Positions 10,802-39,000 of a stretch of DNA of 62,081 nt are shown here, one piece after another (the stretch's first letter is position 1; every line of letters begins with the position of its first letter). The DNA lies in the NCBI GenBank assembly GCA_020831625.1, contig JAFIGD010000029.1:1-62081 (forward strand). Reading direction: 5' to 3'. The notes below the pieces were generated by a model. It saw nothing but the letters and a program-made list of their open reading frames with translations, was not told the DNA's origin and searched no databases. The stretch comes from Verrucomicrobiota bacterium (GTDB taxonomy: Bacteria > Verrucomicrobiota > Kiritimatiellia > SS1-B-03-39 > UBA6053). Position numbers and translations under genes: made by a program.

Positions 10802-11100
10802 GGGGCGGCATTCCTGCCGCACACCAGAGTCACTCGTCCGTGCCTGTCCGTGCCGGTCCGTGCAAATCCGTGCCCCACACCCTTTTGCGCCGCGGCCTGC
10901 GAACAAGGCCGGGCGTCAACAGCCGACTTCCGGCCCGAACAAAACCCCAAAAAAAACCACAATTTAATTCCTCGACAATCTGGATTGGGATCTGTTGGCT
11001 ACAGACCGAAAGAAACCCCATGTTCGAAGCAACCTTCCATCCACAATTCCCGCAGCTCCCGTGCGATCACGGGAGGCGGAAGCGGCTTGAGTCCGGTGCG
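10802..11100 (+). repeat. Cassette-array repeat, copy 1
   Basis: First of eight same-direction copies. Order: GGCGGCATTCC start, a TCCGTGC tandem block (about 10828-10870), a CCTTTTGCGCCGCGGCC hairpin block, an A-rich tract, the core hairpin CTCGACAA...GGATTGGGATC (10971-10998), a conserved ATGTTCGAAGCAACCTTCCA stretch at 11020, and a CCCGTG-CGAT-CACGGG hairpin (11058-11073). It fills most of the 400-bp gap after nasA and is followed at once by a promoter and antitoxin remnant. Confidence 0.8.
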
Positions 11101-12012: not shown

Positions 12013-12055
12013 AAAATCCTTGATTCCGAGTGCAATGAGCATTAAGTTCTTTATC

Positions 12056-12274
12056 ATGGTAACTACACTACAAGTTGAGCAGATGTCGCGGACAGAGAAG
12101 CTTCAGGTCATGGAGACTCTTTGGGCCGCTTTGTCCGTGCCTGACTCCGAGATGGAGTCGCCTGCCTGGCATGCTGACGCACTCAGGGAAACCGAAGACC
12201 GGGCCAGTCGCGGTGAAGAACGCATGGTGGATTGGGATGTTGCCAAGCGGGCACTGAGGAATCGTTTTGAATGA
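12056..12274 (+). CDS. Addiction-module antitoxin, TIGR02574-like
   Basis: 72 residues with the family layout: helix VEQMSRTEKLQVMETLWAAL, then ESPAWHADALRETEDRASRG and VDWDVAKRALRNRFE at the end. Its stop overlaps the toxin start as ATGA, so the two are translationally coupled. The ATG at 12056 fits the family start. A weak promoter (TTGATT at 12020, TAAGTT at 12043) would place transcription at or just before this ATG, like the other TA modules here, but the match is poor. Confidence 0.78.
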   Translation: MVTTLQVEQMSRTEKLQVMETLWAALSVPDSEMESPAWHADALRETEDRASRGEERMVDWDVAKRALRNRFE

Positions 12275-12576
12275 GGATCAAGGTATTATCCTCTGCCGTT
12301 GATGATCTTTCCGCCGGAAGAATATTCTACGAGCACCAGGCAGAGGGAGTTGGAGCATATTTTTTCGACTCTCTCTTTTCAGACATAGATTCTCTCGCTC
12401 TCTATGCCGGGATTCACCCAATCATCCACGGTTACCACCGGATGCTGTCCAAAAGATTTCCGTACGCGATATATTATAAGGTTGAGAATGACCTGGCTGT
12501 TGTATGGCGCGTGCTCGACCTTCGAAGAAATCCTGACAGCATTCGGGATGCGCTGGGGAAAAGAAGAACAAGATAA
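12271..12576 (+). CDS. ParE/RelE-family toxin
   Basis: 101 residues, full length for this family: N-terminal helices (SAVDDLSAGRIFYEHQAEGVGAYFFDSLFSDIDSL), a central strand with HGYHRMLSKRFPYAIYYK and a C-terminal strand VENDLAVVWRVLDLRRNP. The RFPYAIYY motif and final Arg-rich strand are typical of ParE-like gyrase or ribosome inhibitors. It pairs with the antitoxin just upstream and is the only complete TIGR02574-type pair in the array. Which target it poisons cannot be told from sequence. Confidence 0.8.
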   Translation: MRIKVLSSAVDDLSAGRIFYEHQAEGVGAYFFDSLFSDIDSLALYAGIHPIIHGYHRMLSKRFPYAIYYKVENDLAVVWRVLDLRRNPDSIRDALGKRRTR

Positions 12577-14030: not shown

Positions 14031-14203
14031 GATGTCCTCGTCGACGGCCAAACGGACCTGGGCCCAGTCGGATCTGTCGTTGGTGTCGGTTTTCGGGTGG
14101 AGTGGAGTGAGCTGGACCGAAGAAAAAGCAAAAACTTAGAAAAAATGACGGTTTCTATCGGTTTCGGGTTGTAAAGTCATGTGTAAAGTGGGATAGTTGA
14201 ACC

Positions 14204-15001
14204 ATGTCCGATCGAATCCATCCCCCACTGAAGCTGCCCCGCAGCCCCTTGATTTTTGTGCTGGCCCAGGTTCGTTTTCCCGAGTCGCTGGGAATTAAGG
14301 AGCGCATTCCCGTGATACAAGATGCCTTGCGTAAACTTGGATACCTGAAGGTGAATCAAAGGGAAATCATCCAAACGCGCAGAGATTCACAGAACAACGT
14401 GATCTCAAAGCAAATCCACAACCAATGGGAGTTTATAGACCGGGCGGGAACCCAGTCCGTCTTGGTGGACCCCAGATTTGTGAATGTGAATGCTTCAGAA
14501 TATGATGTGTTTGAGGCGTTTCAAAAATGTGTGGCGAAGGTTCTGGGGGTTGTGGCTTCTTGCATTGAGCCTGGTTTAATCGAGCGGCTGGGGCTGCGGT
14601 ATGTGGATTTGATTTCTCCATGTGAAGGACATGGAATGGTTGACTATGTTGACCCGGCGTTAAGGGGTTTCCAAATCGATCCAGACAAAGATCGTGAAGC
14701 CTACTACATTGAGACCATAACGAAAACGGGAGAGCATAAACGATTTATTCATCGTTACACCGAAACAGAGCGTGGATTGGGCTTCCCTCCCGACTTACTG
14801 CCTTCAGGCTTGCGCCTCAGGCAAGATCCCCGCCGTGACAGCGTTTTCGGGCTATTGGATATGGATCATATTCTGACCCAAGAGTTGAATGTGGAACCGG
14901 ATTCAATCCTGGAGGCGTTTACTGATCTGCATGCCCACCACATCAAAGCGTTTAAACGTAGTGTTACGCAAGGAGCTTTGGACGAATGGAGTCAACCATG
15001 A
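14204..15001 (+). CDS. TIGR04255-family protein
   Basis: 265 residues. The start (PPLKLPRSPLIFVLAQVRFPES) and the middle (LIERLGLRYVDLISPCEG) match the sporadically distributed TIGR04255 family, which has no assigned function; members have the N-terminal beta-rich half and a conserved GLRYVN/D motif. There is no signal peptide, so it is probably cytoplasmic. It is first in a three-gene operon and its stop overlaps the next start. GC and codon use are lower than in the nas block, in line with acquisition. A conflict or defence role is possible from its scattered distribution but is inference. Confidence 0.7.
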   Translation: MSDRIHPPLKLPRSPLIFVLAQVRFPESLGIKERIPVIQDALRKLGYLKVNQREIIQTRRDSQNNVISKQIHNQWEFIDRAGTQSVLVDPRFVNVNASEYDVFEAFQKCVAKVLGVVASCIEPGLIERLGLRYVDLISPCEGHGMVDYVDPALRGFQIDPDKDREAYYIETITKTGEHKRFIHRYTETERGLGFPPDLLPSGLRLRQDPRRDSVFGLLDMDHILTQELNVEPDSILEAFTDLHAHHIKAFKRSVTQGALDEWSQP

Positions 15002-15684
15002 GCCCAACCGCCAGAGATTATGGAAAGTACCTGGGAATCGGCTTGATTGCATCCGGTGCTTGCGCTGAAGAACCACGAATCAATATATGGAATGATTCAG
15101 GTTTTGATGTGGATTTTGTCTTTTCCGGATGCCCCAACGAGGAACTTCCTCTTCCATGGGGCACCACGGATGAAGGGATTAGCTACTATTTGTCCAGCAT
15201 CGCTTATCCCGAAATGGAGATCCATGATCAAATCGCCGCCGAACAGGTTCCCGCCCTCCTGCGGAACCTGAAGCGGGTTTTGAACCTGACCACCACCGAT
15301 CTGGCGAGTATTTGTGGTGTAAGCCGCCCCACTATTTACAGTTGGCGCAAGGGGGGAAGCATTGATTCTCAAAACCTCAAGCGGCTGGACACGCTCTCAA
15401 AACTTCTCACGTCCTGGTCGGCGCGGATGAACATGGGACTCATTTCAGCCCCCTCCGTGCCCGCCAGCCCGGAATTGAACAGAATGCTTTTTGCGGAGAC
15501 GCTGGATGAGCTGGCGATTGAGAAGCTCCTGGCCTCGCTGGCCGAAACAGCAAGAGTCCTGGAGGCGAAACGTCCTAACTCGGGCCGGGAACTGGCGGAA
15601 GCGCACGGCCTGGAACCCCTTTCCGAAGACGCCCGGGAACGAAACATGATGATGGTGCGCCTGTCCGCAGGCACGGGGAGATAA
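14986..15684 (+). CDS. HTH-domain regulator-like protein in TIGR04255 operon
   Basis: 232 residues. The N-terminal half carries an unassigned acidic domain (IWNDSGFDVDFVFSGCP). A helix-turn-helix lies around residues 100-130 (LTTTDLASICGVSRPTIYSWRKG), and the rest is helical. The start at 14986 has AAGGAG 10 bases upstream; the alternative ATG at 14998 would give an ATGA overlap with the preceding stop. It probably binds DNA and controls the operon, or senses a signal through its N-terminal part. Located between two unknown proteins in one transcription unit. Confidence 0.65.
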   Translation: MESTMSPTARDYGKYLGIGLIASGACAEEPRINIWNDSGFDVDFVFSGCPNEELPLPWGTTDEGISYYLSSIAYPEMEIHDQIAAEQVPALLRNLKRVLNLTTTDLASICGVSRPTIYSWRKGGSIDSQNLKRLDTLSKLLTSWSARMNMGLISAPSVPASPELNRMLFAETLDELAIEKLLASLAETARVLEAKRPNSGRELAEAHGLEPLSEDARERNMMMVRLSAGTGR

Positions 15685-15690
15685 AACGGC

Positions 15691-16488
15691 ATGGGTGCGG
15701 GAGAGGAGGCTCAACAGATTCGGAACCGGGGCTGGACACAGGGGTCCGTTCTGCCACCCTGCCAGATTCCGGTACTCGCCCCCATGGAAACGGAAGCCGG
15801 CTGGCTGGTCATCACACAGGCCTGCGATTTGGTTCACACAGACTTCGAACAGGAGCCGTATGTGGAACTGCTCCCCCTTCATGCCGTCCCCGACACGCAG
15901 CGGGGGCAAATCGGCAACTTTCTCCACGGGAAAAACCCCCGTGTGCTTTGTTTCGAGATCGGCCGCAGGCTCTTCCAAGTGTACGGCCGCGAGCGGGAAC
16001 GCCTGGACCGCAAGGTGCTTGCGACCGTTTTGCCTGATCCCGGCTTGCGATTGGAAGGCGCGATTCTGCGCATGCTGACCAACTGGCTGGCAAAACGATA
16101 TATCCGCCCCGCTCTGCCCGATGCCTTCAATGCCCGCCTTGGCGAAAAACCCCATGGAAAGAAAATCCGCGGGCTGCTGAAGCAAAAAGGGCATTGGATT
16201 GAATCCATCTTGATCCAATGCTCTCCCCCCCGGGATGAACTGACAGACAGCCAAAACTACAAGGCCGTTTTGTGGTTGCTGATGCGGGTCGACCTCTATG
16301 ATATTCCTTCGGCCCGCGATGAGGCGCTGGACCTCGCGGAATCCTTCGAAGAACTGCTCGAAAATGTCAAAGGGATTGATTTCCTTGATTGCAGCCTGCT
16401 CAGTGAAGCGGAGGTAAGTCTCGACGACCTGCGGTCTTTTGTGCCATGGGATTTTGACGACTTGAGCCACCGTGACGACCTTTCCTGA
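15691..16488 (+). CDS. Unknown protein with VITQACDLVH motif
   Basis: 265 residues, soluble. The segment GWLVITQACDLVHTDFEQEPYVE near residues 37-57 resembles the 'SQ(D/T)CDIV' motif seen in uncharacterised proteins of mobile and defence loci. The remainder is mixed alpha/beta with an acidic C terminus (EVSLDDLRSFVPWDFDDLS). It begins 6 bases after the HTH gene, so it belongs to the same operon. Conserved Cys and Asp in QACDLV could be metal or catalytic residues, but this is a guess. No function is assigned. Confidence 0.6.
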   Translation: MGAGEEAQQIRNRGWTQGSVLPPCQIPVLAPMETEAGWLVITQACDLVHTDFEQEPYVELLPLHAVPDTQRGQIGNFLHGKNPRVLCFEIGRRLFQVYGRERERLDRKVLATVLPDPGLRLEGAILRMLTNWLAKRYIRPALPDAFNARLGEKPHGKKIRGLLKQKGHWIESILIQCSPPRDELTDSQNYKAVLWLLMRVDLYDIPSARDEALDLAESFEELLENVKGIDFLDCSLLSEAEVSLDDLRSFVPWDFDDLSHRDDLS

Positions 16489-16852: not shown

Positions 16853-17221
16853 GTGAAAGACCTCATGACAAAACAGTTTGGGAAATGGGTGTCGAATCAA
16901 TCGATGGATACCAGCCAATTGAAAACCGCACTGGAGGAAGTCAGACAGGGCATATGCGAAGCCAACCTTGGCGGCCACCTGTACAAGAAAAGAATCCCTT
17001 TTAAAGGGCACGGAAAAAGGGGAAGCGGGAGAACGATCGTATGCTTTAAGAAGGAGCAAATCGCTATTTTTATCCACGGCTTCGCAAAGAATGAAACCGA
17101 CAACCTTTCACCCAAAGAACTCAAAGCCTTCAAAGCTTTAGCAAAAATATTAACCGAACTCACCCCCGGTCAGATTTCAACCGCACTGAAAAACGGAGAC
17201 TTCAAAGAGGTAAACCAATGA
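16853..17221 (+). CDS. RelE/HigB-like toxin (COG4737 type)
   Basis: 122 residues from GTG 16853. The pattern FGKWVSNQSMDTSQLKTAL, then GGHLYKKRIPFKGHGKRGSGRT, CFKKEQIAIFIHGFAKNETDN and LSPKELKAFKALAKIL is that of the RelE/HigB-like toxins that pair with a downstream HTH antitoxin. They act as ribosome-dependent mRNA endonucleases in studied members. The GTG start is favoured by promoter geometry. ATG 16865 is the alternative and fits the family N terminus equally well. The stop overlaps the antitoxin start (ATGA), so here the toxin comes first. Confidence 0.78.
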   Translation: MKDLMTKQFGKWVSNQSMDTSQLKTALEEVRQGICEANLGGHLYKKRIPFKGHGKRGSGRTIVCFKKEQIAIFIHGFAKNETDNLSPKELKAFKALAKILTELTPGQISTALKNGDFKEVNQ

Positions 17222-17523
17222 GAAAATCAATTGTCGATTCCATCCAGAACACCGTGGCTGATCTAAATAAGAGCGGGATTGTCGATGACATCACGATGAA
17301 GAACATCGAAACCCTTTGCCTGCCCGAAGTCCATGACTACTCGCCGGAGAGTATTGTATCCCTCCGGCGTCAAAACCACCTCAGCCAGGCGGCGCTTGCC
17401 GCAGTGCTCAATATCAGTCCCTCCACTGTCCGTAAATGGGAACAGGGCACGAAAAAGCCTGCGGGAGCATCCAAAAAACTGCTGGACCTCGTGGAGCGTA
17501 AAGGCATCGAAGTGCTGGTGTGA
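17218..17523 (+). CDS. HTH antitoxin (HigA/XRE type)
   Basis: 101 residues. A C-terminal XRE-type helix-turn-helix runs from about residue 50 (SIVSLRRQNHLSQAALAAVLNISPSTVRKWEQGTKK), preceded by a 45-residue segment that would bind the toxin. It should neutralise the partner and repress the shared promoter at 16818. Toxin-first order and the ATGA overlap match HigBA-like modules. Confidence 0.82.
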   Translation: MRKSIVDSIQNTVADLNKSGIVDDITMKNIETLCLPEVHDYSPESIVSLRRQNHLSQAALAAVLNISPSTVRKWEQGTKKPAGASKKLLDLVERKGIEVLV

Positions 17524-18386: not shown

Positions 18387-19238
18387 CTACGCCTCGCTTG
18401 CAAAATCCCGCAGGGCCTGTTTGTTTTCTTCATTCACGGTTTCCGCCCCCTGGCCTTTAATTTTCTCGAGGACTTCCCCGGCAGCGTTTTTCTTTTTCTT
18501 ATCGTCCGGCTCTTTAATGACGAAGAGAAGATGTTCAGGATGATCGGTCAGCTTGTTCAAACGATCCAGACGGCTGCACCAGCGGTCACCATGTTCAAGA
18601 ATACTGGTGGCATCCCGCTTGTCCAGATGTAGAGGTTTGATCGCACGGAGAACCTTCCCGTCCTTTTCTTTAACAAACGGTAGTTTCACCTTGTAGTCCG
18701 TTTCAGGGTCCAAAAAAGTTCGTTCCGTGTAGAGATTATCGAGTTTCTGCTCTTTCAAAAAACGAGCCAGACGTTTTTGCATGACTTTTTCCTGATAGTC
18801 GTGCTGATTTGCAAATTGACGCTCCACGTAGTGCTCAAAGAGAGCCTCAAGGGTTGTTTCGGGATGATCGGTCGCCACGGTCCGGATGCCGCTGTACCGC
18901 ATGATGCTCTCACGGGGACGGACCACTTCCCTAAATAAATTGATGAGGCTTTTCTCGTCCAGATCCAGTTCATGCTGCCCGGCATCTTCGTCAGGATTCA
19001 CCATTTGCGCAACCCGCTGCAGCTCCTTGTCACAGAGGGTTCTCGCGGTGGTGTAGATCCCGGGGTCCATCTCAGGAAAAAAACGGGTAATACGGTCCCG
19101 TCGCCGGGTTTCGATTCTAAATTCAAAACGGCGCGGGCGGTTGCAGATCATCACGATCCCGACATTCGCGAATTCCTCTGTCTCCGGATAAGGGAGAAAG
19201 CGGATCACGGCATAGTTGCATATGGCTTTCATGTTCAT
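18387..19238 (-). CDS. DUF3037 family protein, orphan
   Basis: 283 residues. The start (CNYAVIRFLPYPETEEFANVGIVM) is the DUF3037 hallmark. In other genomes this family usually sits next to a HipA-like kinase gene, suggesting a toxin-antitoxin-like pair; here no HipA-like gene is adjacent. It is the only cassette in the array read on the minus strand. No signal peptide or membrane helix. The C-terminal part is charged and helical. The ATG at 19238 gives the family start; a second ATG lies two codons in. Confidence 0.75.
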   Translation of the reverse strand: MNMKAICNYAVIRFLPYPETEEFANVGIVMICNRPRRFEFRIETRRRDRITRFFPEMDPGIYTTARTLCDKELQRVAQMVNPDEDAGQHELDLDEKSLINLFREVVRPRESIMRYSGIRTVATDHPETTLEALFEHYVERQFANQHDYQEKVMQKRLARFLKEQKLDNLYTERTFLDPETDYKVKLPFVKEKDGKVLRAIKPLHLDKRDATSILEHGDRWCSRLDRLNKLTDHPEHLLFVIKEPDDKKKKNAAGEVLEKIKGQGAETVNEENKQALRDFASEA

Positions 19239-25156: not shown

Positions 25157-28100
25157 TTATTGAATTGAAGACCCCACCAGCCCGATTTCCTCCGGCGAAA
25201 GCTGGAACAGCTTGTAGACGATGGTATCGATGCGGGCCTCGTGGTCGGCCAGTGCTTTTTCGTCACCGTCCTTTTTCGCGGCGGCGCATTTTGCGGCCAG
25301 GTCGCTGAGTTCGGCTGTTTGGGCGTCGTTCATGGGGGGAACCGGGACTTTCTCCATCACTTCTGTGAACGCCCGCATGTATCCACCCCGAATTTGGTTT
25401 GAGAGCTTGCTGTAAACGAACTCTGTCAGTCCCGAGTTGAGGTATGCGCAGAGCCATTTTTCTCCCCGGGCGATGAAATAGGTGGTGTTAACCGAATAAA
25501 TTTCATCTTCGGCGTATGCGAAGCTTTGGTGTTCATAAATATCGGGATAGATGATCCGTGGATTTGAGAAATCATTCCAGTATTGGCATGACCGCAGTTC
25601 CCAGAAGTACTTCCCTTGATCAGATCGTTTGATGAGCTTTTCGCGGTATTCGCCGTCGAGCATTCGCTTGGCGATGACGGGATAGGTTTGTCGGAAACAG
25701 GCCTCGGCCTCTTCCGGTTGGAGTTTGCTCCAGGGATGGGTTTTGTTTTCGCTGGATTCGATCCGGATCAAGTACAGGTCGGCGTGAATGGGTGTCCATT
25801 TTTTCACGTCGCGACCGCGAAGATAGGGCTTGAGGAGTTCCGCCGATTTAGGATCCTCGGCGATCAGTTGGTCGCGGGTTTCGGCGTCGACGACGAAGGC
25901 ATCGTTGAATCCGGTTTTGATGCCGTAGTAGAAGCGTCCTTCGACCACTTCACCGAGGGGTGTGCCGAGGCGTTGGATTTTTTCGAGTAGGTTGAAAGTC
26001 TCGGGATTCTCCAGCCGCCAGGCGTCGGGGGTGAGTCGGGACTGGAGCAGCGGGAAGCCAATGCGGTCGAGACTTTCGTCGAGGTTTTCGAATTCGTCCT
26101 CCGGCAGCCAGGTGCAGGCGGGAAATTTGTGGTCTTTGGACGGGGAGACTTTCTCTCCCAGCAGGATGGAGGCGTAGGCGATGGCTTCGAAGACCGGGGC
26201 GTCGCCGAAGTCGATGAGTTGCCGCAGGGTGAGTTCGTCGGTCAGCAGTTTCCGCAGGGCCTTGCCGTAGGCGGCGCGGTAGAATTTGTTGGAGGTAATG
26301 AAGGTGAGGACGCCGTCGGGTTTGAGGATGCGCAGGGCGCGTTCGAAGAAGAGGCAATAGAGGTCGGCGGTTTTGCCGAAGCTTTGGTAGCCGCTGTTTT
26401 TGAGGCCTTCTTTGATGTCGGCGGGGAGGGACTGGATCTGCACGTAGGGCGGGTTGCCGATGACGGCGTCGAAGCCGATGAAGGCGCCTTCGTTGTCGAG
26501 CACTTCGGGGAATTCGAAGCGCCATTCGAAGGCGTCTTCGAAGATGCGGTTGCTGCGGATGGTCTCGATTTCGTCGTCGAGCTTCTGAATGTCGGCGGTG
26601 AGGGTTTTGACCTCTTTGTTCCAGGCGGCTTTCTCTTTGGGGGTCTGTTCGAAGAGGCGGGTCTGGAGGGTGAGTTCGTTGAGGCGGCCGGTGAGTTTGT
26701 TTTTGCGGCGGACGCGGGGATCGTTGTTGTGAATCTCGGCTTCGAAGTCGCCTTTGATGTCGCTGATAAGCTGGCGCATCTTGCGCTTTTGCTCTTTGGT
26801 CTGCGCGTTGCGGTAGCTCATGACCGCGACGCGGTAGCCGTCGATGGTCCATTTGCTTTTGCGCAGGGCCTGTTTCAGGTCGGAATCGAGGTCGAAACGG
26901 CTGATGAGGGAGTTGCCGCACTTGATGTTGATGTCGATGTTGGGCAGGGTCTCAAGCTGGTTCTCGCTTTTGTAGTAGGCGTGTTTGAGCAGTTCGATCC
27001 ACAGGCGCAGCCGGCAGATTTTCACGGAATTGGGGTTGAGGTCCACTCCGAAGAGGCAGTTCTCGATGAGGGTCTGCTTTTCGTGGAAGAGGGCCTCCTG
27101 CACGCGCTGGCTTTCGGGCAGGGAGGGTTTGTATTCGAAAAAGTCGCCATCCTCGTCGGTGATGAACAGTTCGTCGTGGACGACCTCGACGTGGTAGTTT
27201 TTGAGGCGGCGGCCCTGGCGGTCGCAGAGCAGCCCGAGTTCGCTTTTGAGGGCGATGATTTCGTTGAGGGCGGAGACGAGAAAATGGCCGGAGCCGACGG
27301 CGGGGTCGCAGAATTTGAGGGCGTTGATGACGCGGTTGGCCTCTGCGCGGTCCTCGATGCGGTCGGCGAGCTGTGGAAGACTTTGGCAGTCCCAGCCTTT
27401 GACCTCTTTGAATTTCCGGAGCACCGCGAGGCGGATGGTCTCGCGGCACATATACATGGTGATGAAGCCGGGGGTGAAGAAGGATCCGTCGCGGTAGCCG
27501 TTGATTTTCTCGAAGATGAGGCCGAGCACGGAGGCGTTGATGAGGGTTTTGTTGTCCTCCTGGATTTCTCCGGTGCCCTCGGAGGTGAAGTCGTAGGCGT
27601 CGAGGAAGGTGAAGAGGTATTCCAGGGCGTCGCGTTCGCCCTCGATCCGTTTGCCGCGGCTGTCCCGCAGCACGGTGCCGGGGTGGAGGGCGAGCGGGCG
27701 GTCTTTGAGCTGGCAGACGAAGAGGCCGTGGTGCTCGATGTCGGAGGGTTCAAAGAGGGAGCTGTTGAGATAGGGGACGTTTCTGAAGCGGGCGGCGATT
27801 TCGGGGTCGCGCGCGTCGGGTTCGCGGGCGAGCACCTGGAAAAAGAGGGCGTCGAGGTCGTCGTAGCTGCCGATCTTCTTGTAGTTGAGGAAGGCATAGG
27901 CGGGGTCGCCCTTGTGATAGGAGAGGAGCTGGGCCTCGAGGAGTTTGAGGAACAGCACCCGGTTGGTCCAGGTGATGACGAGTTCGAGGGCGATGTTGAA
28001 GAGCCGCTCCTCCCGGGTTTCGCCGTATTGTTTTGGATTGGGGATGTGGGCGAGGTTGTCGCGGGCCTCGAGCTGCCGGATGGCGTTTTCCAGCAGGGAG

Positions 28101-29104
28101 CCGGGATCGCGTTCGCCTTCGGGCTTGCGTTCGATGAGCTTTTTGCCGCCCTGTTTGCGTTCGGCGAGGCCGATGATGTGGAGGAGTTCGCTGTAAAAGC
28201 GGCGGTCGAGGGAGTTGCTGTCGTTGGCGAAGGGGAGCTTGAGCAGGTGGGTGGGGGAGAGGAGTTTGGAGAGAATGACGAGTGACGAATGACGAGTGTG
28301 AGGAGTGTCGAGTGACGAATGACGAGTGTGAGGAGTGTCGAGTGACGAATGACGAGTGACGAATGGGGGAGAGGGGACAGGAGCGCCGATCGCCGCATCG
28401 GCTGGGGCGAAGGGGGATGGAGGGGATGGAGGGGATGGGGAACGCGAACTTCGAACATCGAACGTTGAACGTTGAACGTCGAGGTCCCGCAAATCAATGT
28501 GTGTGAACTCCATCAGCGGCGACGCAAGCTCCAACGCCGGCGAGGCGATGTCTTTGTAGAAATGCTCGGTTTTGGTGCCGGCGAGGCGTTTTCCCTCGAA
28601 TTCGCGGAAGAGGCGGACGAGGGTTTTGTCGCGGGCGAAGCAGCGTTCGAACACCCGCGCGTCGAAGATGAACCATTCGTGGACGTTGGTGACGATCAGG
28701 TGGCGGAGTTCCAGGTTATGAAGGGTGATGCGTTCGCGCAGGTAGTAGAGCAGCAGTTCCTGCAGGGCCTTGGTGTTGAGCCGGTCGCGGGTGGGCATTT
28801 CCGCGGCGTTGGCGGGGCTTTTGACCTCCAGGATCACCCCCACCGGCGTTTTGGCATCGCTGCCGTTGTGGATCACCAGATCATTGCGGCCTTTTGTATT
28901 GATAAAGCGGTCGGGCGCGAAGCCGGTGTGCTTGAGCAGGTCGCTGAGCAGGTTTTTGTGGAACTCCTCGGACTCGGCGGGATTGACGCTGTCGAACAGC
29001 GTGGCCAGCGCGGCTTTGAAGCCCTCCATGTCGGCGCGGTTGGGCTTCACCTTTAAAAAGGCTTTGTTCAGTGCCTGGCGCGGTTTCAGTCGGATCGGGG
29101 CCAT
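25157..29104 (-). CDS. Eco57I-like/type IIG restriction-modification enzyme
   Basis: 1315 residues in one chain. A PD-(D/E)XK-type nuclease motif appears at VILEVKSPAN near residue 93. Methyltransferase motif I is CDPAVGSGHFLV near 600 and motif IV NPPYVQIQ near 883. The C-terminal 400 residues match TaqI-like target-recognition domains (PYLRGRDVKKW, and LSDLAAKCAAAKK at the end). It should cut and methylate DNA by itself. ATG 29104 follows AAGGA. Unusual: residues about 205-280 (Ser/Pro/His-rich, with RHSSLDTPHT repeats) are encoded by dispersed-repeat DNA inserted in frame between the nuclease and helical domains. Activity with this insert is uncertain. Confidence 0.85.
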   Translation of the reverse strand: MAPIRLKPRQALNKAFLKVKPNRADMEGFKAALATLFDSVNPAESEEFHKNLLSDLLKHTGFAPDRFINTKGRNDLVIHNGSDAKTPVGVILEVKSPANAAEMPTRDRLNTKALQELLLYYLRERITLHNLELRHLIVTNVHEWFIFDARVFERCFARDKTLVRLFREFEGKRLAGTKTEHFYKDIASPALELASPLMEFTHIDLRDLDVQRSTFDVRSSRSPSPPSPPSPFAPADAAIGAPVPSPPFVTRHSSLDTPHTRHSSLDTPHTRHSSLVILSKLLSPTHLLKLPFANDSNSLDRRFYSELLHIIGLAERKQGGKKLIERKPEGERDPGSLLENAIRQLEARDNLAHIPNPKQYGETREERLFNIALELVITWTNRVLFLKLLEAQLLSYHKGDPAYAFLNYKKIGSYDDLDALFFQVLAREPDARDPEIAARFRNVPYLNSSLFEPSDIEHHGLFVCQLKDRPLALHPGTVLRDSRGKRIEGERDALEYLFTFLDAYDFTSEGTGEIQEDNKTLINASVLGLIFEKINGYRDGSFFTPGFITMYMCRETIRLAVLRKFKEVKGWDCQSLPQLADRIEDRAEANRVINALKFCDPAVGSGHFLVSALNEIIALKSELGLLCDRQGRRLKNYHVEVVHDELFITDEDGDFFEYKPSLPESQRVQEALFHEKQTLIENCLFGVDLNPNSVKICRLRLWIELLKHAYYKSENQLETLPNIDINIKCGNSLISRFDLDSDLKQALRKSKWTIDGYRVAVMSYRNAQTKEQKRKMRQLISDIKGDFEAEIHNNDPRVRRKNKLTGRLNELTLQTRLFEQTPKEKAAWNKEVKTLTADIQKLDDEIETIRSNRIFEDAFEWRFEFPEVLDNEGAFIGFDAVIGNPPYVQIQSLPADIKEGLKNSGYQSFGKTADLYCLFFERALRILKPDGVLTFITSNKFYRAAYGKALRKLLTDELTLRQLIDFGDAPVFEAIAYASILLGEKVSPSKDHKFPACTWLPEDEFENLDESLDRIGFPLLQSRLTPDAWRLENPETFNLLEKIQRLGTPLGEVVEGRFYYGIKTGFNDAFVVDAETRDQLIAEDPKSAELLKPYLRGRDVKKWTPIHADLYLIRIESSENKTHPWSKLQPEEAEACFRQTYPVIAKRMLDGEYREKLIKRSDQGKYFWELRSCQYWNDFSNPRIIYPDIYEHQSFAYAEDEIYSVNTTYFIARGEKWLCAYLNSGLTEFVYSKLSNQIRGGYMRAFTEVMEKVPVPPMNDAQTAELSDLAAKCAAAKKDGDEKALADHEARIDTIVYKLFQLSPEEIGLVGSSIQ
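28280..28484. repeat. Dispersed-repeat insertion within the restriction gene
   Basis: A 30-bp unit is repeated 2.8 times at 28280-28363 (starts GAGTGACGAATGACGAGTGT). A GATGGAGGGGATGGAGGGG stretch and a GAACGTTGAACGTTGAACG run (about 28460-28480) follow. All periods keep the reading frame, giving the repeated peptide RHSSLDTPHT. Confidence 0.8.
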
Positions 29105-29206
29105 TCCTTGGGATTCTCCATTCGGCGGGTTGATGCGGATTTCTTCGTAGCACGGAGGCGGGCCGGCCGTCGAGACGAATTGGGGGGATTTGCGGCGGGG
29201 CGAGGG

Positions 29207-29250
29207 GTCTCACGGAGGCACAGAGGCACGGAGCGGAGCGTGAAGAAAAC
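29207..29250. repeat. Fragment of array repeat (CACGGAGGCACAGAGGCACG block)
   Basis: TCTCACGGAGGCACAGAGGC matches the block in array copies 6 and 7 (17873, 19427). It lies alone in the gap upstream of the restriction gene, so parts of the repeat family are scattered beyond the array. Confidence 0.6.
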
Positions 29251-29323
29251 GCCGATATCTTTATCTGTCCGACTTTCATGAATACAAAAGCGGGGTGACC
29301 CGTCCATTTCGACCGCTTGATCT

Positions 29324-29372
29324 TATAATAAGGATTCCTTTTATTATAGTTTAGAATTTTATCCTATAATAA
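29324..29372. promoter_or_regulatory. Candidate operator/promoter of fic
   Basis: A near-perfect 25-bp palindrome (29324-29348, arms TATAATAAGGA/TCCTTTTATTATA) is followed by a related half-site TCCTATAATAA (29362-29372), 30 bases before the fic start. The Fic protein ends in a winged-helix domain, so autorepression is plausible. Confidence 0.5.
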
Positions 29373-29400
29373 CAGGGCCGTTTATGATAGGCTTGTGTCC

Positions 29401-30576
29401 ATGAAAAGAACGATTCAAGGTAAATATGAAACCGCGACAACGCTGGGCGAGGCGGTTCGCGCCTTTGTACCCTCCCCCCTTCCTCCGGTTCCTCCAATTG
29501 ACTGGCATCCACAGCTTCGAAGTCGTTTTGACGGGGCAATGCACGCCCTGGGGCGGCTCGACAGCGTATCCTCCCTGCTGCCCGACGTGTCCCTGTTTCT
29601 CTATACCTACGTGCGCAAAGAGGCTGTACTCTCCTCCATGATCGAAGGCACACAATCCTCCCTCTCCGACCTGCTCCTTTATGAAATGAAAGAATCACCC
29701 GGGGTCCCCCTCGACGACGTGCGCGAGGTCAGCAACTATGTAAACGCCCTGGAACACGGACTCCGCCGTCTTCGAGGTGGTTTCCCTCTTTCCCTGCGGC
29801 TGATCCGTGAAATGCATGAACTGCTTTTGGCTGACGGCAGGGGCCGCGAAAAAGACCCCGGCGCGTTCCGCCGCAGCCAGAACTGGATCGGCGGCACCCG
29901 CCCCGGCAACGCGCATTTCGTTCCTCCCCCTCCCCAACGAATTATGGAATGCATGGGGGCTCTGGAGCTGTTTTTACACAATCAGCCGGAACCCACACCG
30001 CCGCTCATCAAGGCCGCACTCGCCCATGTGCAGTTCGAAACCATTCATCCTTTTCTCGACGGCAATGGGCGTCTGGGAAGGCTGCTCATCCCCCTGATCC
30101 TCTGCGAAAGCGGCATCCTCCGCGAACCCATGCTCTATCTCAGCCTCTTCTTCAAAACCCACCGCCAAACGTATTACGATCTCCTCAACCGTGTCCGCAC
30201 GGAGGGCGACTGGGAAGCCTGGCTGGACTACTTCGCCGAAGCCGTCACCCTCACCGCCACCCAGGCCGTCGATGCCGTCCAACGCCTCGAAGCCCTCGCC
30301 CGCGGGGACCGCGAACGCATCCACTCCCTCGGCCGGGCCGCCAAATCCGCCCGGCAAATCCACCAGGAACTGCTTCGCCGCCCACTTGCCACCTCACCCG
30401 AACTCGCTCATCGCACCGGCCTCACCGCCATCACCGTCAATCGCGCCCTCGACCACCTCTGCACGCTTGAGATCCTCCGCGAAATCACCGGACAACGCCG
30501 CAACCGCGTTTTCGCCTATCCCCGCTTCCTCGCCATCCTCCAGGAGGGCACCGAACCGCTCGTGGCGGGGAGCTGA
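29401..30576 (+). CDS. Fic-family protein with autoinhibitory helix and winged helix
   Basis: 391 residues. The Fic active site HPFLDGNGRLGR is at 216-227; its His is the catalytic base for AMP transfer to target hydroxyls. The inhibitory motif S-x-x-x-E-G (SSMIEG, 78-83) is N-terminal, so this is a class II, self-inhibited Fic. A C-terminal winged helix (about 320-380: TSPELAHRTGLTAITVNRAL) probably binds DNA. ATG 29401 was chosen; GTG 29395 is possible. It is monocistronic between the restriction gene and recQ. Target protein unknown. Confidence 0.85.
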   Translation: MKRTIQGKYETATTLGEAVRAFVPSPLPPVPPIDWHPQLRSRFDGAMHALGRLDSVSSLLPDVSLFLYTYVRKEAVLSSMIEGTQSSLSDLLLYEMKESPGVPLDDVREVSNYVNALEHGLRRLRGGFPLSLRLIREMHELLLADGRGREKDPGAFRRSQNWIGGTRPGNAHFVPPPPQRIMECMGALELFLHNQPEPTPPLIKAALAHVQFETIHPFLDGNGRLGRLLIPLILCESGILREPMLYLSLFFKTHRQTYYDLLNRVRTEGDWEAWLDYFAEAVTLTATQAVDAVQRLEALARGDRERIHSLGRAAKSARQIHQELLRRPLATSPELAHRTGLTAITVNRALDHLCTLEILREITGQRRNRVFAYPRFLAILQEGTEPLVAGS

Positions 30577-30752
30577 CTCCCGTTATCCGGCCTCCCCGCT
30601 GCGGCGGGAGGATGGGTGAGTGCGGACTTCTGGCGGTTGTGTGGCCCTGGCACCACCGCCACAAGGACGCAGGGTGGCCGGGGCGGCGGAGTACGGGAAT
30701 TTCTTTCAAAAAAATCTATACGTTCGAACCCATTTAAGGTATACGTTTGATT

Positions 30753-32675
30753 ATGTCTGATTCAAACTCCCCCCGCGCGACCTTAAAACAGTTTTTTGGA
30801 TTCGACGACTTCCGCCCCGGTCAGGAGGCGGTGGTCGGTCACCTGCTGGCGGGCCGGTCGGCCCTGGCGGTGTTTCCCACCGGCGGCGGCAAGAGCCTGT
30901 GTTATCAGTTGCCGGCCCTGCATCTGGAGGGGCTCACGCTGGTGGTGTCGCCGCTGATCGCCCTGATGAAGGATCAAATCGATTTCCTCGTCGGCAAAGG
31001 CATTGCCGCCGCCCGCATGGACTCCAGCCTGACCGCCGATGAGTCGCGCAAAGTCTGGGACGATCTGTGGGAGGGCCGGCTGAAGCTCCTGTATGTCGCC
31101 CCCGAACGCTTCGCCAGCGAACGTTTTCTGCAAAGGCTGCGCCGCGCGCGCATCAGCATGATGGTGATTGACGAGGCCCACTGCATCTCCGAATGGGGGC
31201 ACAACTTCCGGCCGGATTACATGAAGCTCGCGAAGCTCGCCCGCGATGTCAATGCGGAGCGGGTGCTGACCCTGACCGCGACCGCCACCCCGGCGGTGGC
31301 GCGGGACATCCGCAAGAGCTTTGACATCGCGCCCGAAGCCTACATCAACACCGGCTTTCACCGTCCGAATTTGTTTTACCGGGTGACCCCCGTGACCCGT
31401 TCGGAGCGGGACGCGCTGCTGCTCGAACGCATTCGGACGCGGCCTCCGGGCGCCACGATCGTGTACGTCACCCTGCAGAAAACCGCCGAGGAGGTCGCGG
31501 CGATGCTGGCGGCTCACGGTTTCCCGGCGCAGGCCTATCACGCCGGTCTCGATCCGCAGGTGCGCCATGCCGCGCAGGACAAATTCATGTCCTCGCCCGA
31601 TGCGATTGTGGTGGCCACCATCGCCTTCGGTATGGGCATCGACAAAGCGGACATCCGATACGTCTATCACTACAATCCGCCCAAATCACTGGAGAATTAC
31701 ATGCAGGAAACCGGGCGCGCGGGCCGCGACGGGAAACCCTCCGGCTGTGAAATGCTGTTTTGTCCCGACGACATCCCCGCGCTGGAGAATTTCAGCTACG
31801 GGGACACCCCTTCACTGGAGTCGGTGGAAGGGTTTCTGCGCGAACTCACCGGGCAGCCCGACACCTTCGATCTCTCCATGTACGAGCTGTCCTCCCGGCA
31901 CGACATCCGCCAACTGGTGGTGTCCACCCTCCTGACCTATCTGGAACTCGAAGGCGTTCTCGAAGCCACCGGACCGCTTTACAACGAATACAAATTCCAG
32001 CCCCTGCGCACATCCAGGGAGATGCTGGCCCGGTTCGATCCCGAACGCGCCGCGCTCATCAAAAATCTATTCAGCCAGGCCCGGAAAGGCCGCACCTGGT
32101 TCACGCTCGACATCGCCTCCGCCGCCGAACGCCTCGCCCAGCCCCGCGCCCGGCTGGTGGCGGCGCTGAATTATCTGGAGGAGCAGGGCGATCTCAAACT
32201 GCAGGTGGCCGGACTCCGCCACGGATACCGCTTTGTACAGCGTCCCGCCGACGACGACGCGCTGGCCAAAACCCTCCACGAACGCTTCCGCAAAGCCGAA
32301 ACCCGCGATATCGCCCGCATCCGGCAGGTGATCGATCTTGCCAAAACCTCCGACTGTCTGGTCAAGGCCCTGTTGGATTACTTTGGCGAAGCCCTGGAAA
32401 AACCCTGCGGCCACTGTGACCGCTGCAAGGGCGACTTCACGGCGTTTATCGAAAGCCAGGAATCCGCCACCCTTTCGCGCGAGGATCAGGAAGTCCTCAA
32501 AAAACTCCGGGCCGAAAACCATCCCGCCCTGCAGTCGCCCCGGCAAATCGCCCGCTTTCTCTGCGGCATCGCCTCCCCCGCCGCCAGCAAAGCCCGGCTC
32601 ACCCGCGACCCGCGGTTCGGCAGCCTCGCCCACCGCCGCTTCGCAACCCTCGCCAAAGCGGCGGCGGGTTGCTAA
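30753..32675 (+). CDS. recQ: RecQ-type ATP-dependent DNA helicase
   Basis: 640 residues. Helicase motifs: FRPGQE, Walker A FPTGGGKSLCYQLP near 44, DEAHCISEWGHNFRPDY near 139, and motif VI QETGRAGRDG near 317. A zinc-binding segment with CGHCDRC lies near 550. It unwinds 3'-tailed duplexes in recombination and repair. The last 60 residues do not show a clear HRDC domain. ATG 30753 was chosen over the TTG two codons upstream. The 3' end (from 32640) carries a 24-bp stretch that is repeated 170 bases further on, next to a misplaced symporter fragment. Confidence 0.88.
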   Translation: MSDSNSPRATLKQFFGFDDFRPGQEAVVGHLLAGRSALAVFPTGGGKSLCYQLPALHLEGLTLVVSPLIALMKDQIDFLVGKGIAAARMDSSLTADESRKVWDDLWEGRLKLLYVAPERFASERFLQRLRRARISMMVIDEAHCISEWGHNFRPDYMKLAKLARDVNAERVLTLTATATPAVARDIRKSFDIAPEAYINTGFHRPNLFYRVTPVTRSERDALLLERIRTRPPGATIVYVTLQKTAEEVAAMLAAHGFPAQAYHAGLDPQVRHAAQDKFMSSPDAIVVATIAFGMGIDKADIRYVYHYNPPKSLENYMQETGRAGRDGKPSGCEMLFCPDDIPALENFSYGDTPSLESVEGFLRELTGQPDTFDLSMYELSSRHDIRQLVVSTLLTYLELEGVLEATGPLYNEYKFQPLRTSREMLARFDPERAALIKNLFSQARKGRTWFTLDIASAAERLAQPRARLVAALNYLEEQGDLKLQVAGLRHGYRFVQRPADDDALAKTLHERFRKAETRDIARIRQVIDLAKTSDCLVKALLDYFGEALEKPCGHCDRCKGDFTAFIESQESATLSREDQEVLKKLRAENHPALQSPRQIARFLCGIASPAASKARLTRDPRFGSLAHRRFATLAKAAAGC

Positions 32676-33086: not shown

Positions 33087-36000
33087 ATGAAATTTTTAAT
33101 GACCAAAGTCATACGCTGTCTCTCGTTCCTATGTTTTTTCATTCGTTTTTCACAAGTCTCATTCGGTCAAACTGCGGGAACGGTTGATGTCGACTTCGAC
33201 CCTGATTTCGATGGTTTTGCGCTTGCAGCCATTGCCCGGCAGCCGGACGGGAAACTTATCGTCGGGGGTTATTTCAGGAACGTCAATGGGTACCCTCGCA
33301 GAAATATTGCACGGCTGAATGAGGATGGTTCTCTGGACGGGAGCTTTGATCCCGACCTGGGCATCAGCGGTTCTGTCGGAACTGTCGCAGTTCAACCGGA
33401 TGGTAAAATTTTGATAGGAGGCTCTTTCACATTCATCAGCGGAAACATTCGTAATCGGATTGCACGGCTGAATTCGGACGGCACGTTGGATATGAGTTTT
33501 GAGGCGGATGCAGACAGTAATGTTGAAACAATTCACATTCAAGCGGACGGAAAAATTCTGGTTGGCGGGTGGTTTAGCTCAATGAACGGCGAGCCGAAAA
33601 ATCGGATTGCCAGGCTGAACATTGACGGTTCATTGGACCAGGGGTTTAATCCGGATGTCAATGGTTCGGTGTATACACTTGTCACCCAAACAGACGGCAA
33701 AATTCTGCTGGGTGGAAATTACACCGCGATCGGCGGTCAAACACGTAACTTCATCGCCCGAATAAACGAAGACGGAACGCTGGATTCAGAATTTAATCCG
33801 GTGCCTAACGGCGTGATCCATACTATGGCGCTTCAGTCTGACGGCAAAATTCTGCTGGGGGGGGGATTCACCTCACTCAGCGGCCAGGTCCGAAACCGTG
33901 TTGCAAGGTTACACCCAAACGGTTCCGTGGATATAAACTTCGACCCAAATGTGAACGACACTGTAAGAACGTTGACGTTGCAGGCCGATGGAAAAATTCT
34001 GGTCGGCGGGGATTTCAGTACCGTGAAAAACCAATCCCGCAGTAGAATCGTGAGATTGGCAACCAGTGGTTTTCCTGATAACAGTTTTACCGGAGCCTCC
34101 GGCAATATTGTTTTTTCGCTTGCATTACAATCGGACGGCAAGGTTCTGGTCGGCAGCCAATCCTCCTTGACCAGATTGCATAACGAGCCGGCAAACACGG
34201 TTTTGGGAGTATTAGGCACCTCAGAAATCAATTGGTATCGTGAAGGGAGTGCGCCGGAAATCGAGCAAGTCCGGTTTGAATATTGGAATGGTTCAACCTG
34301 GCAGAACACAGAACAGCCTCAACGGATGAGTCACGGCTGGCAGATTACAGATGTAAACCTTCCCGAAAGAGGATGGGTACGCGCTCAAGGACGCGCTCAT
34401 GGCGGGTTCCAAAACAACTCATCCGGGATCATTCAGGAAATCATCGCATACGGGGACGGAGCGTTTCCCTTCATTGGTTTAAGCAAGGAGGGTGAATCCC
34501 TGCTGCCTGGCGTGTCCACAATAAGTTTCGGCACCTTGCAATGGAGGGAGGCTTCATCTCCTGTTCTGCTGACTGTCAGTAATCAGGGCGATGCGGTGCT
34601 TGAGAATCTGGCTGTTCATTTAGAAGGCGTACATGGGGCTGAATTTGTCGTGAGCCCATTGACCGAGTCCTCTTTGCCCCCAGGCCACAGCACTTCAGTT
34701 GCCGTGTTGTTTTCGCCGACATCCGTTGGCAGCCGAAATGCCATTTTGTCGATCACCAGTAATGATGCATCGCATCACCCATTTTCGGTCGGATTGACAG
34801 GCACAGGATTGCACGGGGAAATGGAATTTAATCCGGATATCGGACCAACACAAAGTGCGGTTTTTGCTTTTGTGACACAATCGGACGGGAAAATCATGGT
34901 TGGAGGGAATTTCACCAGCATCAGTGGACAGACTCGAAACCGTATTGCGCGACTGAACGCGGATGGATCGTTGGACATGGGTTTTGATCCGAATGCCAGC
35001 GGGATTGTTTATGCGATGGCGGTACAGCAGGATGGCAGGATATTGATCGGTGGAAATTTCACAAGTCTTGGAGGGCAGCCGCGAAGCCGCCTTGCCCGAC
35101 TGAATGCTGACGGTGTGTTGGACGAAAGTTTCAATCCTCCTTCTATCAGTAACGTGATTAGGGCGGTTACATTGCAAGAGGATGGAAAAATACTGATCGG
35201 GGGGAGTTTCACCAATATCGGAGGGCAAGTACGTAACCGGATTGCCCGATTGAATCCGGACGGCACACTGGATGAAACGTTTATTTGCAGCGCCAACAGT
35301 GATGTCTACTCTTTAGTGTTGCAGCCGGACGGTAAAATCATCGCGGGCGGATTTTTTACGAGTATTGGCGGCCAAACCCGGAATCGAATTGCACGATTAA
35401 ACACGGACGGGGCTCTTGACGAACTGTTTAATCCTGACGCAAACAACGCCGTCAACACACTCATCCTGCAGGCGAACGGCAAAATTCTGGTCGGAGGCAA
35501 TTTTACGAATTTGGGTGGACAAGCACGCAACCGGCTGGCTCGGTTGCAATCGGATGGCACACTGGATGAGGATTTTGATCCGAATGTGAGCAATCCGGTG
35601 CATTCCCTTGCACTCCAGACAGACGGAAAAATTCTGCTGGGAGGGGAATTCGGGAGGATTGGGGAGGTGACACGCAACCGGATTGCAAGGCTTAATCCTG
35701 AAGGAACGCTGGACCCGACTTTTAATCCGGGCGCCAGTGGCACGGTCAGAGCCCTCATGTTGCAGCCGGAGGGTAACGTCCTGGCCGGAGGTGATTTTTT
35801 CACCCTCGGGGGCCAACCCCGAAATCGGATTGCGCGGTTACAGAATGATCCGGCGCATTCAGAACTGGTGAAACCGGCGGACGATCAGCTTGTCTGGCAT
35901 CGCGGAGGCAGTGCCCCGGAAATTGAACAGGTACAGACTGCATACTGGGACGGTGCCACATGGCAACACACAGGTACCGCCGAACGCATGCACGGGGGGT

Positions 36001-39000
36001 GGCAAATCATTAATTTGAATCTCCCTGCCAGTGCCTGGCTCCGAGTGCAGGCACGCACTCAAGGTGGTGCATACAGCAGTTCGTCCACGATGATCAGGGA
36101 GTTGACGACGTACGGCGGTGGATCATTCCCTTCGATTGATGTAAGCGTGGGGGGGGAACCCTACAGAACAGGGGCTGCGTCGCTGGATTTTGGAAAAATA
36201 AAATGGAAAGAGACTTCGGAACAAATCCCGGTGACGATCATGAACCAGGGAGATGGCATTCTCGACGACCTGGAGGTACATCTAGCTGGTGATCATGCAA
36301 GTGATTTCTCTGTTTCCCCGATTTCAGCGACCTCATTAGCCCCCGGTGAAAGCACCACCATTATGGTTTCTTTCCGTTCTTGGAACAGTGGTGGACGAAA
36401 CGCGATTCTTAAGATTACCAGTAATGATATGTCTAAAGAAACCTTGTCAATTACATTGGCAGGTGAGGTTGTGCACGCGGACCTTGATCTGAATTTGGGT
36501 TTTTTCGTGGGCGATGTCATGACTCTTGCGAGACAACAGGACGGAAAAGTTCTTCTGGGGGGCGGTTTTAACACTATTGAGGGGCAAAGCTTTAACCGAA
36601 TTGCCCGAATGAATGCCGACGGTTCTCTGGATACCCGATTCAATCCAAATGCAAATAATAATGTTCACAGCATCGCGGTGCAACCGGATGGGAAAATTAT
36701 CGTGGGAGGAACATTCTCCAGCATTGGTGATCAGCCGCGTGGCTATATCGCACGCTTGCATGAAGATGGCAGTGTGGATGACAGTTTCAACGCTTTTGCC
36801 GGGGGGGCACCCGCTACCGGAATATTCTCTCTCGCGCTGCAACCGGACGGGAAAATCGTGATTGCAGGTTCAATATCGACGGTTGACGGGCAATCATTCA
36901 GTCGTATTGCCAGGCTTAATTCCGACGGATCGTTGGATCAAACATTCAATGTGAATGTAAATAACACGGTCTTGACGATCGGGCTGCAGCCGGATGGAAA
37001 GATCCTGGTGGGAGGACTCTTCACCACGGTCAACGGACTGTCACGAAACCGGATTGCCCGGTTACATGATGACGGAACGGTTGACGAGAACTTTGATCCG
37101 AATTCAAACGGTTTCGTCACTGCTTTCGCAATTCAGTCGGACGGCGGTATTCTGGTCGGGGGTGGTTTTGCAAATATCGGTGGGCAGCCACGCGATCGGA
37201 TTGCCCGATTAAATCAGGACGGATCAGCGGACGAGATGTTTCTTTCAAGTACAAGCCACCCGGTCACCACCTTTGCCTTACAGTCGGACGGAAAGATTCT
37301 GGTCGGAGGCGATTTTACAAGTATTGGAAATCAACCGCGCAACCGCATTGCCCGGTTGTACACCGACGGTACGCTGGACCTTTCCTTTGATCCGAATGCT
37401 GACGGTTCGGTTAAAGCTGTTCTGTTGGAATCCGACGGCAGGATCATGGTTGCGGGCGGATTTACATTCATCGGCGGAGAACCGCGCAATCAAATTGCAC
37501 GGTTACGGAATGATCCGGCGATTTCAGAATTGACGGTGACGGAAACCAGCCAAATTAACTGGCGGCGGGACGGAGGCGCTCCGGATTTCGACCGGGTGGA
37601 GTTTGCATATTGGGACGGTACAGCATGGCAAAACACAATTCTCCCGTATCGCTATGCGGATGCATGGCAGACCCACCCGCTTAACCTGCCGATAAATACA
37701 TGGATTCGGGCACAAGGGTTCATTGCCGGGGGCTGGAATAACAATTCATCAGGAATGATTGAGGAGATCATTCCATATGGCGGGGAAGGATTTTCGTCTC
37801 TATCCATCCGGATAAACGACGAACCTGCAGAAATAGACACCGCCAGCATAAAGTTTACCGGGGTCCAATGGGGGGCAATCGCAAACCCGGTTCAGGTGAG
37901 TATAACAAACGACGGGGATGCTCCACTTGAAGATTTGGCACTTGCATTGGGGGGAACTCACGCGGGCGACTTTACCCACACCCCGCTTTCCGTCACATCA
38001 TTGGCCCCCGGTGAAAACACCACTGTTTCCCTGTTTTTCAATCCTACGGGCAGCGGAAACCGGGTGGGAATACTTTCTGTGCTCAGCAATGACAGAACGA
38101 AATCCCCTTTCAAAATCACCTTGGCCGGTTCCGTTTCATACCTGGATAATGGATTCAACCCCGGTGCCGGCGGAATTGTCCATGCCATCGCATTACAACC
38201 GGACGAAAGGATCCTGCTCGCGGGAAATTTTAACACGATCGGGGAGCAGATTCACAGGAGAATCGCCCGTTTGAATGTGGACGGTTCTTTGGATGAAGAC
38301 TTTAACCAATCCGTAACCGGCGGTGCCGTCAGAACACTTGCTTTGCAGTCGGACAGGAAAATTCTCATCGGCGGGAGTTTTACGCAAGTAGATGGACTGT
38401 GGCGGAATCACCTCGCCCGGCTGAATCCGGACGGTTCTCTGGATGACACCTTTACCCCGGCTGTAAGCCACCAAATTCTGTCGCTGGTTTTACAGGCCGA
38501 CGGTAAGATCCTTATAGGGGGTAGTTTCACATCTGTCGGAGGAGAAACCCGTAACCGAATCGCTCGATTGAGTCCTAACGGATCATTGGATGCAACATTT
38601 AATCCCGACGCGAACGGGGCCGTGCAATCCATCGCAATCCAGGCGAATGAACAAATCGTGATTGGAGGAAATTTTACAGCGGTCAACGGGCAACCGCGTA
38701 ACCGGATTGCCCGGCTGAATCCGGACGGGACTCTGGATGAAACGTTTAATCCGCCCATGCACAACACCGTCTTTTGTCTGGCAATACAACCCGACGGCAA
38801 AATCCTCGCGGGAGGAGGTTTTACAGGTAACATCAGGCGGTTAAACTCCGACGGCACCAACGATGAGGGCTTCAATGTTCATGCGGATTCCACTGTCAGA
38901 ACTATAGCAATTCAGTCGGACGGCAAAATTATAGCAGGTGGAGATTTTAAGATGATTGGCGGTCGGACACGCAACCGGATTGCCCGTTTACATTCCAACG

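Follow-up and report, generated by a model that had tools for sequence, protein, structure and literature searches.

Three coupled genes, here called A, B and C, probably encode an antiviral immune system and are put forward as a candidate for one. They were found on a 62,081-nucleotide stretch of DNA from a Verrucomicrobiota bacterium (hereafter, the window), and they form a compact operon that recurs in fixed order across many phyla, is preceded by an operator of its own, and occupies known antiphage hotspots in P2-like prophages.

Organization of the operon and its setting in the window

The operon is made up of gene A (14204-15001; 265 aa), gene B (14986-15684; 232 aa) and gene C (15691-16488; 265 aa), all on the plus strand. 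ORF analysis placed a 16-base overlap between A and B and a 6-base gap between B and C, the very coupling described in the original prediction; the three genes constitute a tight operon. Gene A is, as had been proposed, a member of TIGR04255 (sporadTIGR04255), an NCBIfam family without assigned function, which it matches over 251 of 252 positions with 118.9 bits, well above the curated cut-off of 30. Residues R43, Y100, G130, R132, D219, D221 and W262 are invariant. The structure model of the protein (pLDDT 91.5) returned weak and mixed structural matches to AdoMetDC, TBP and guanidino kinases, with no SecB-like protein among the matches listed, and an assignment of function from the fold was rejected on these grounds. 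The term TIGR04255 occurred in none of the papers of the library searched.

Gene B carries the central HTH that had been claimed for the second protein. The domain is XRE-like, spans residues about 88-134, scores narrowly below the Pfam HTH cut-offs, and is the region over which the gene B profile matched Xre-type antitoxins and repressors. The region N-terminal to it is variable; a hydrophobic segment was found there in 43 of 97 cases (10.4 predicted by shuffles), and 79 of 97 cases had a G-[TSIV]-G motif (16.1 predicted by shuffles). The segment, which is short and weak in the window's own gene B, may serve as a membrane tether or as a segment that binds a toxin or another partner.

The surroundings of the operon also proved to be as described, namely toxin-antitoxin (TA) modules with a restriction island nearby. 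One TA module (Unstab_antitox and a ParE-like protein, 12020-12576) lies on one side of the operon and another (RelE and an HTH protein, 16853-17523) on the other, and a type IIG restriction enzyme and a SoFic-like protein (25157-29104 and 29395-30576, respectively) follow 9-15 kb downstream. The G+C content is 0.68 at 8-10 kb and drops to about 0.50-0.57 across the operon. Between positions 11000 and 19500, the intergenic stretches that separate the TA modules from the operon contain an interspersed repeat family (68-212 bp, at most five copies here, with GACAATC...GATTGTC arms), so that the TA modules and the operon each look cassette-like between repeats. Other features of the window include a DUF3037 protein that also matches the PADLOC candidate PDC-M66B (18387-19238), the consecutive arrangement of the type IIG restriction-methylation enzyme, the SoFic-like Fic protein and a RecQ-like helicase (25157-32675), and a single ORF of 3,595 aa with an apparent secretion signal (33087-43874).

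Distribution and joint inheritance of the three genes

A protein search with gene C retrieved 11 records from a plasmid collection, belonging to cyanobacteria, Deinococcota and alpha-, beta- and gamma-proteobacteria. All 11 displayed the A-B-C order and strand (a TIGR04255 gene followed by a gene that encodes an HTH or is unannotated, and lastly C), and the order was also present in a record labelled Acinetobacter phage. A scan of one genome per species gave 100 relatives, 80 of which were kept, and nine more were found on viral contigs with a mixed alignment, which was required there, scans of the viral contigs with single window proteins having given no match. In profile searches, nearly all of the ~80 species genomes and nine viral contigs had the genes in A-B-C order on the same strand; E. 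coli also carries this order. Exceptions were confined to contig ends, degraded copies (L046, L056, L096 and L101) and a natural A-B fusion in Rugamonas (L038, 8747-9991) which is devoid of the N-terminal hydrophobic part of B and is accompanied by an intact C. By record, the taxa comprise Pseudomonadota, cyanobacteria, Meiothermus, Verrucomicrobia, Terriglobia, Emticicia, Chloroflexi, Nitrospirae, Omnitrophota and Acidothermus. With about 100 loci and rare exceptions, the expectation that the same three-gene neighbourhood would be met in other genomes was strongly upheld, and no link to a housekeeping pathway was seen. Since the same order recurs across so many phyla, the grouping of A, B and C is beyond chance.

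The three genes also diverge together, pairwise identities correlating with r values of 0.93-0.95 that none of 500 permutations equalled. The operon is present in one copy per genome in 35 of 35 genomes checked (split in one genome), and it is rare, being found in 1 of 388 genomes of the window's phylum and in 19 of 5,426 E. coli genomes. A widely conserved gene order combined with such rarity characterizes a unit that moves horizontally.

TIGR04255 genes are not restricted to this arrangement. At four loci from the window's class (L115-L118) they adjoin other unknown proteins and are devoid of B and C, an arrangement consistent with a shared module, for instance a sensor. The adjoining proteins at L115, L116 and L117, clearly so at the first two, are of ~180 aa and 140-157 aa, and these three loci apparently represent a different TIGR04255 operon.

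A direct-repeat operator private to the operon

Upstream of gene A in the window lie two TGTAAAG half-sites 12 bp apart (TGTAAAGTCATGTGTAAAG, 14170-14188, plus strand), the second of which is separated from the start of the gene by 15 bases. The corresponding consensus upstream of A is the direct repeat TGTMAAS-N5-TGTMAAS. Of 99 upstream regions, 68 contained an exact pair of TGTMAAS half-sites at 12 bp; no such pair occurred in any of 6,202 control blocks drawn from the same loci. The operator is the sole match in the 62 kb of the window (0.00 expected) and the only one in the 4.9-Mb genome to which it belongs, and ten other genomes yielded 12 matches, 11 of them at the operon; it is thus conserved at, and private to, the operon. 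In two E. coli copies it stands 67 and 72 bp before A. BLAST similarity over the 150 bases upstream of A joined 83 of 97 loci, even though protein identity between them is often no more than about 25%, because this region bears an array of TGTMAAS half-sites (TGTCAAC, TGTAAAC and TGTAAAG at spacings of 12, 7 and 19 bp). Palindromic operators showed no excess upstream of A and were rejected, the signal consisting of direct repeats.

Variation in the recognition helix of gene B suggests which protein reads these repeats. A glutamine follows 'SR' in 88 B proteins, nearly all of which have TGTMAAS upstream, whereas the upstream regions of five B proteins with a lysine at this place are devoid of the TGTMAAS form; several of the latter loci display, by eye, a related 12-bp repeat such as GTGTAAT-N5-GTGTAAT. 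As the residue tracks the form of the repeat, gene B is the likely binder of the operator. The five lysine-type proteins are partly related to each other, and the covariation is therefore support rather than proof; judged from sequence, binding of the operator by gene B is probable, and we infer it strongly.

The modelled fold of gene C resembles MazF and CcdB

Gene C bears the VITQACDLVH motif and, in keeping with the original prediction of a third protein without a family, had no match in Pfam, NCBIfam or PADLOC. Residues C45, D46, E55, R84, W132, R136, Y137 and R139 are invariant. Its AlphaFold model (pLDDT 88.8) consists of a MazF/CcdB-like N-terminal fold and an alpha/beta C-terminal part. 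In comparisons with VIA-align, all 50 of the matches listed were MazF or CcdB chains (best Z 9.7, 101-105 residues, rmsd 3.1-3.6), and the best Foldseek value against these toxins was 1.9e-3, the matched region covering about residues 5-141. A sequence link to MazF was considered and rejected: hhalign against a six-sequence MazF profile gave a probability of 2.6%, that is, no detectable similarity, and PemK/CcdB was absent among 25 Pfam families listed for 75 gene C members. Given this lack of sequence-profile support, the likeness of the modelled N-terminal domain to MazF and CcdB is one of fold only. Compared by residue kind, the conserved positions of gene C (C45, D46, E55, R84 and so on) differ from the catalytic Arg/Thr of MazF.

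Gene C is also the most frequently broken gene in degraded copies. In three lineages (L056, L101 and the Meiothermus loci L005/L062) it is interrupted next to an intact A and B, which fits C as the costly part of the operon, the numbers being small.

Prophage hotspots and defence-gene neighbours

All four E. coli loci inspected lie in a P2-like prophage beside the portal gene gpQ. In MFDS1001074, the operon is flanked by the portal gene and by a DinI-like gene that itself follows the replication gene; the three further loci occupy the same gpA-gpQ place and share 64% DNA identity over B and C with the MFDS1001074 form. A P2-type portal gene likewise directly follows C in Escherichia sp. ESNIH1 and Franconibacter, and the viral contig L015 presents a P2-type integrase, A-B-C and then a cI-like repressor. 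Both the gpA-gpQ and the integrase-cI sites of P2-related phages are antiphage hotspots, and the P2 hotspot bears other cargo as well (Rousset 2022, PMC9122126), including partition genes. The location of the operon at two published antiphage hotspots supports a role in defence, and together with the conservation of the unit it lends substance to the original suggestion of a candidate conflict or defence system. Overall, loci also occur outside prophages and islands.

An association with other defence genes was borne out in part. Among the ORFs within 6 kb of 20 loci, strong PADLOC matches (counted per model, not per protein) were obtained for a type III restriction pair, ThsB, HmaA, a type IV restriction system and HEC-09; matches in control stretches taken from these contigs were fewer and for the most part weaker. 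The excess is modest at best, the named neighbours within 6 kb being mostly housekeeping genes along with three integrases, and a strong enrichment in defence islands was accordingly rejected.

Discussion

Computation establishes the structure of the operon, the joint inheritance of its genes, the operator and the location at prophage hotspots. In the mechanism that we propose, B would bind the tandem TGTMAAS half-sites that precede A and thereby repress the operon, acting as repressor and possible antitoxin, and C would be a harmful effector whose N-terminal MazF/CcdB-type domain halts a core process such as translation. As long as the cell is healthy, B (perhaps via its conserved N-terminal hydrophobic/GTG segment) and A would keep C inactive, with A, at a guess, in the role of sensor or second neutraliser; phage infection, sensed via A or through the loss of B, would free C and halt phage production. 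C is in this scheme a putative toxin, B or A its putative neutraliser, and the operon a putative block to phages. We consider the chances to be evenly balanced that A-B-C is a horizontally moving, self-contained defence cassette acting as a regulated TA-like (abortive infection) system. Counted against abortive infection are the Rugamonas A-B fusion, in which the hydrophobic segment is missing and yet C is intact, the absence of sequence similarity between C and MazF, the modest excess of defence genes, and the occurrence of loci beyond prophages and islands. The more specific idea of a hitherto undescribed three-component immune family, in which TIGR04255 would be a shared infection sensor controlling a MazF-fold effector with a C-terminal part of its own, silenced by a hydrophobic-segment repressor on tandem direct repeats, is possible but doubtful; if true, it would provide the first role for the functionless TIGR04255 family.

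The MazF/CcdB-like fold of C and an operator of the autoregulation type would also suit an addiction or plasmid-maintenance TA module that serves its own persistence and has not been selected for any antiphage role, as would the 11 plasmids and the TA modules beside the operon in the window. We find this rather unlikely in view of the copies of E. coli and its relatives at the P2 gpA-gpQ antiphage hotspot (even if that site also bears partition genes), and of three components and a large C-terminal part of C that exceed a minimal addiction pair. The assignment of roles might also be inverted, A being an effector enzyme with a conserved Arg/Asp active site (R43, R132, D219 and D221 are invariant), C and B a sensing and regulatory pair, and the fold of C a non-toxic binding domain; TIGR04255 genes beside unknown proteins other than B and C fit a shared effector as well as a shared sensor. 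The toxin-type fold of C, the predominance of breaks in C among degraded copies, and the weak, mixed structural matches of A speak against such an inversion, which we hold to be decidedly unlikely. Least probable is a non-defensive accessory operon of prophages or plasmids serving, for example, lysogeny or copy-number control: B does resemble an autorepressor with an HTH, and some copies lie near integrases and cI, but chromosomal copies stand beside housekeeping genes in many phyla, and the operon's own genome holds no further copies of the operator.

Several known systems invite comparison with A-B-C. With the type II TA systems MazEF and CcdAB it shares the modelled N-terminal fold of C and a putative autorepressor gene directly upstream of C; it differs from them in the lack of sequence similarity of C, the extra C-terminal part of this protein, the third gene and the direct-repeat operator. 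The order of genes in toxin-antitoxin-chaperone (TAC) systems, in which the chaperone component is SecB-like, is not that of A-B-C. A-B-C resembles TAC (e.g. CmdTAC, PMC11618068) in its three-component logic, with possible control of one toxin by two proteins, and differs in its (putative) toxin. A further system to compare consists of three genes lacking a clear predicted domain, which reside at the P2 hotspot and protect against P1 (Rousset 2022, PMC9122126); the name Rst_3HP is in use (PMC9090908). The E. coli A-B-C copies likewise comprise three genes and are found at exactly the same gpA-gpQ hotspot. We take the name Rst_3HP to stand for the three-gene P2-hotspot system that Rousset described in 2022, and as the E. 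coli operon could look domain-less in Pfam annotation, E. coli A-B-C could be Rst_3HP. No Rst_3HP model was matched when the window proteins were compared to PADLOC, a library that may not contain one. Were the two the same, the family would already have a demonstrated antiphage activity, and the novelty would lie in the operator together with the fold of C, the connection to TIGR04255 and the spread over many phyla.

Relative to the TIGR04255 family as such, A-B-C is set apart by two specific partners and an operator, and the direct-repeat operator and the prophage-hotspot location are what is new here. A sporadic and functionless family thereby becomes part of a defined, mobile and self-regulated unit, the private operator and fixed partner genes of which allow the cassette to be recognised readily in any genome, and its copies in E. 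coli prophages offer a ready laboratory model for the function of TIGR04255.
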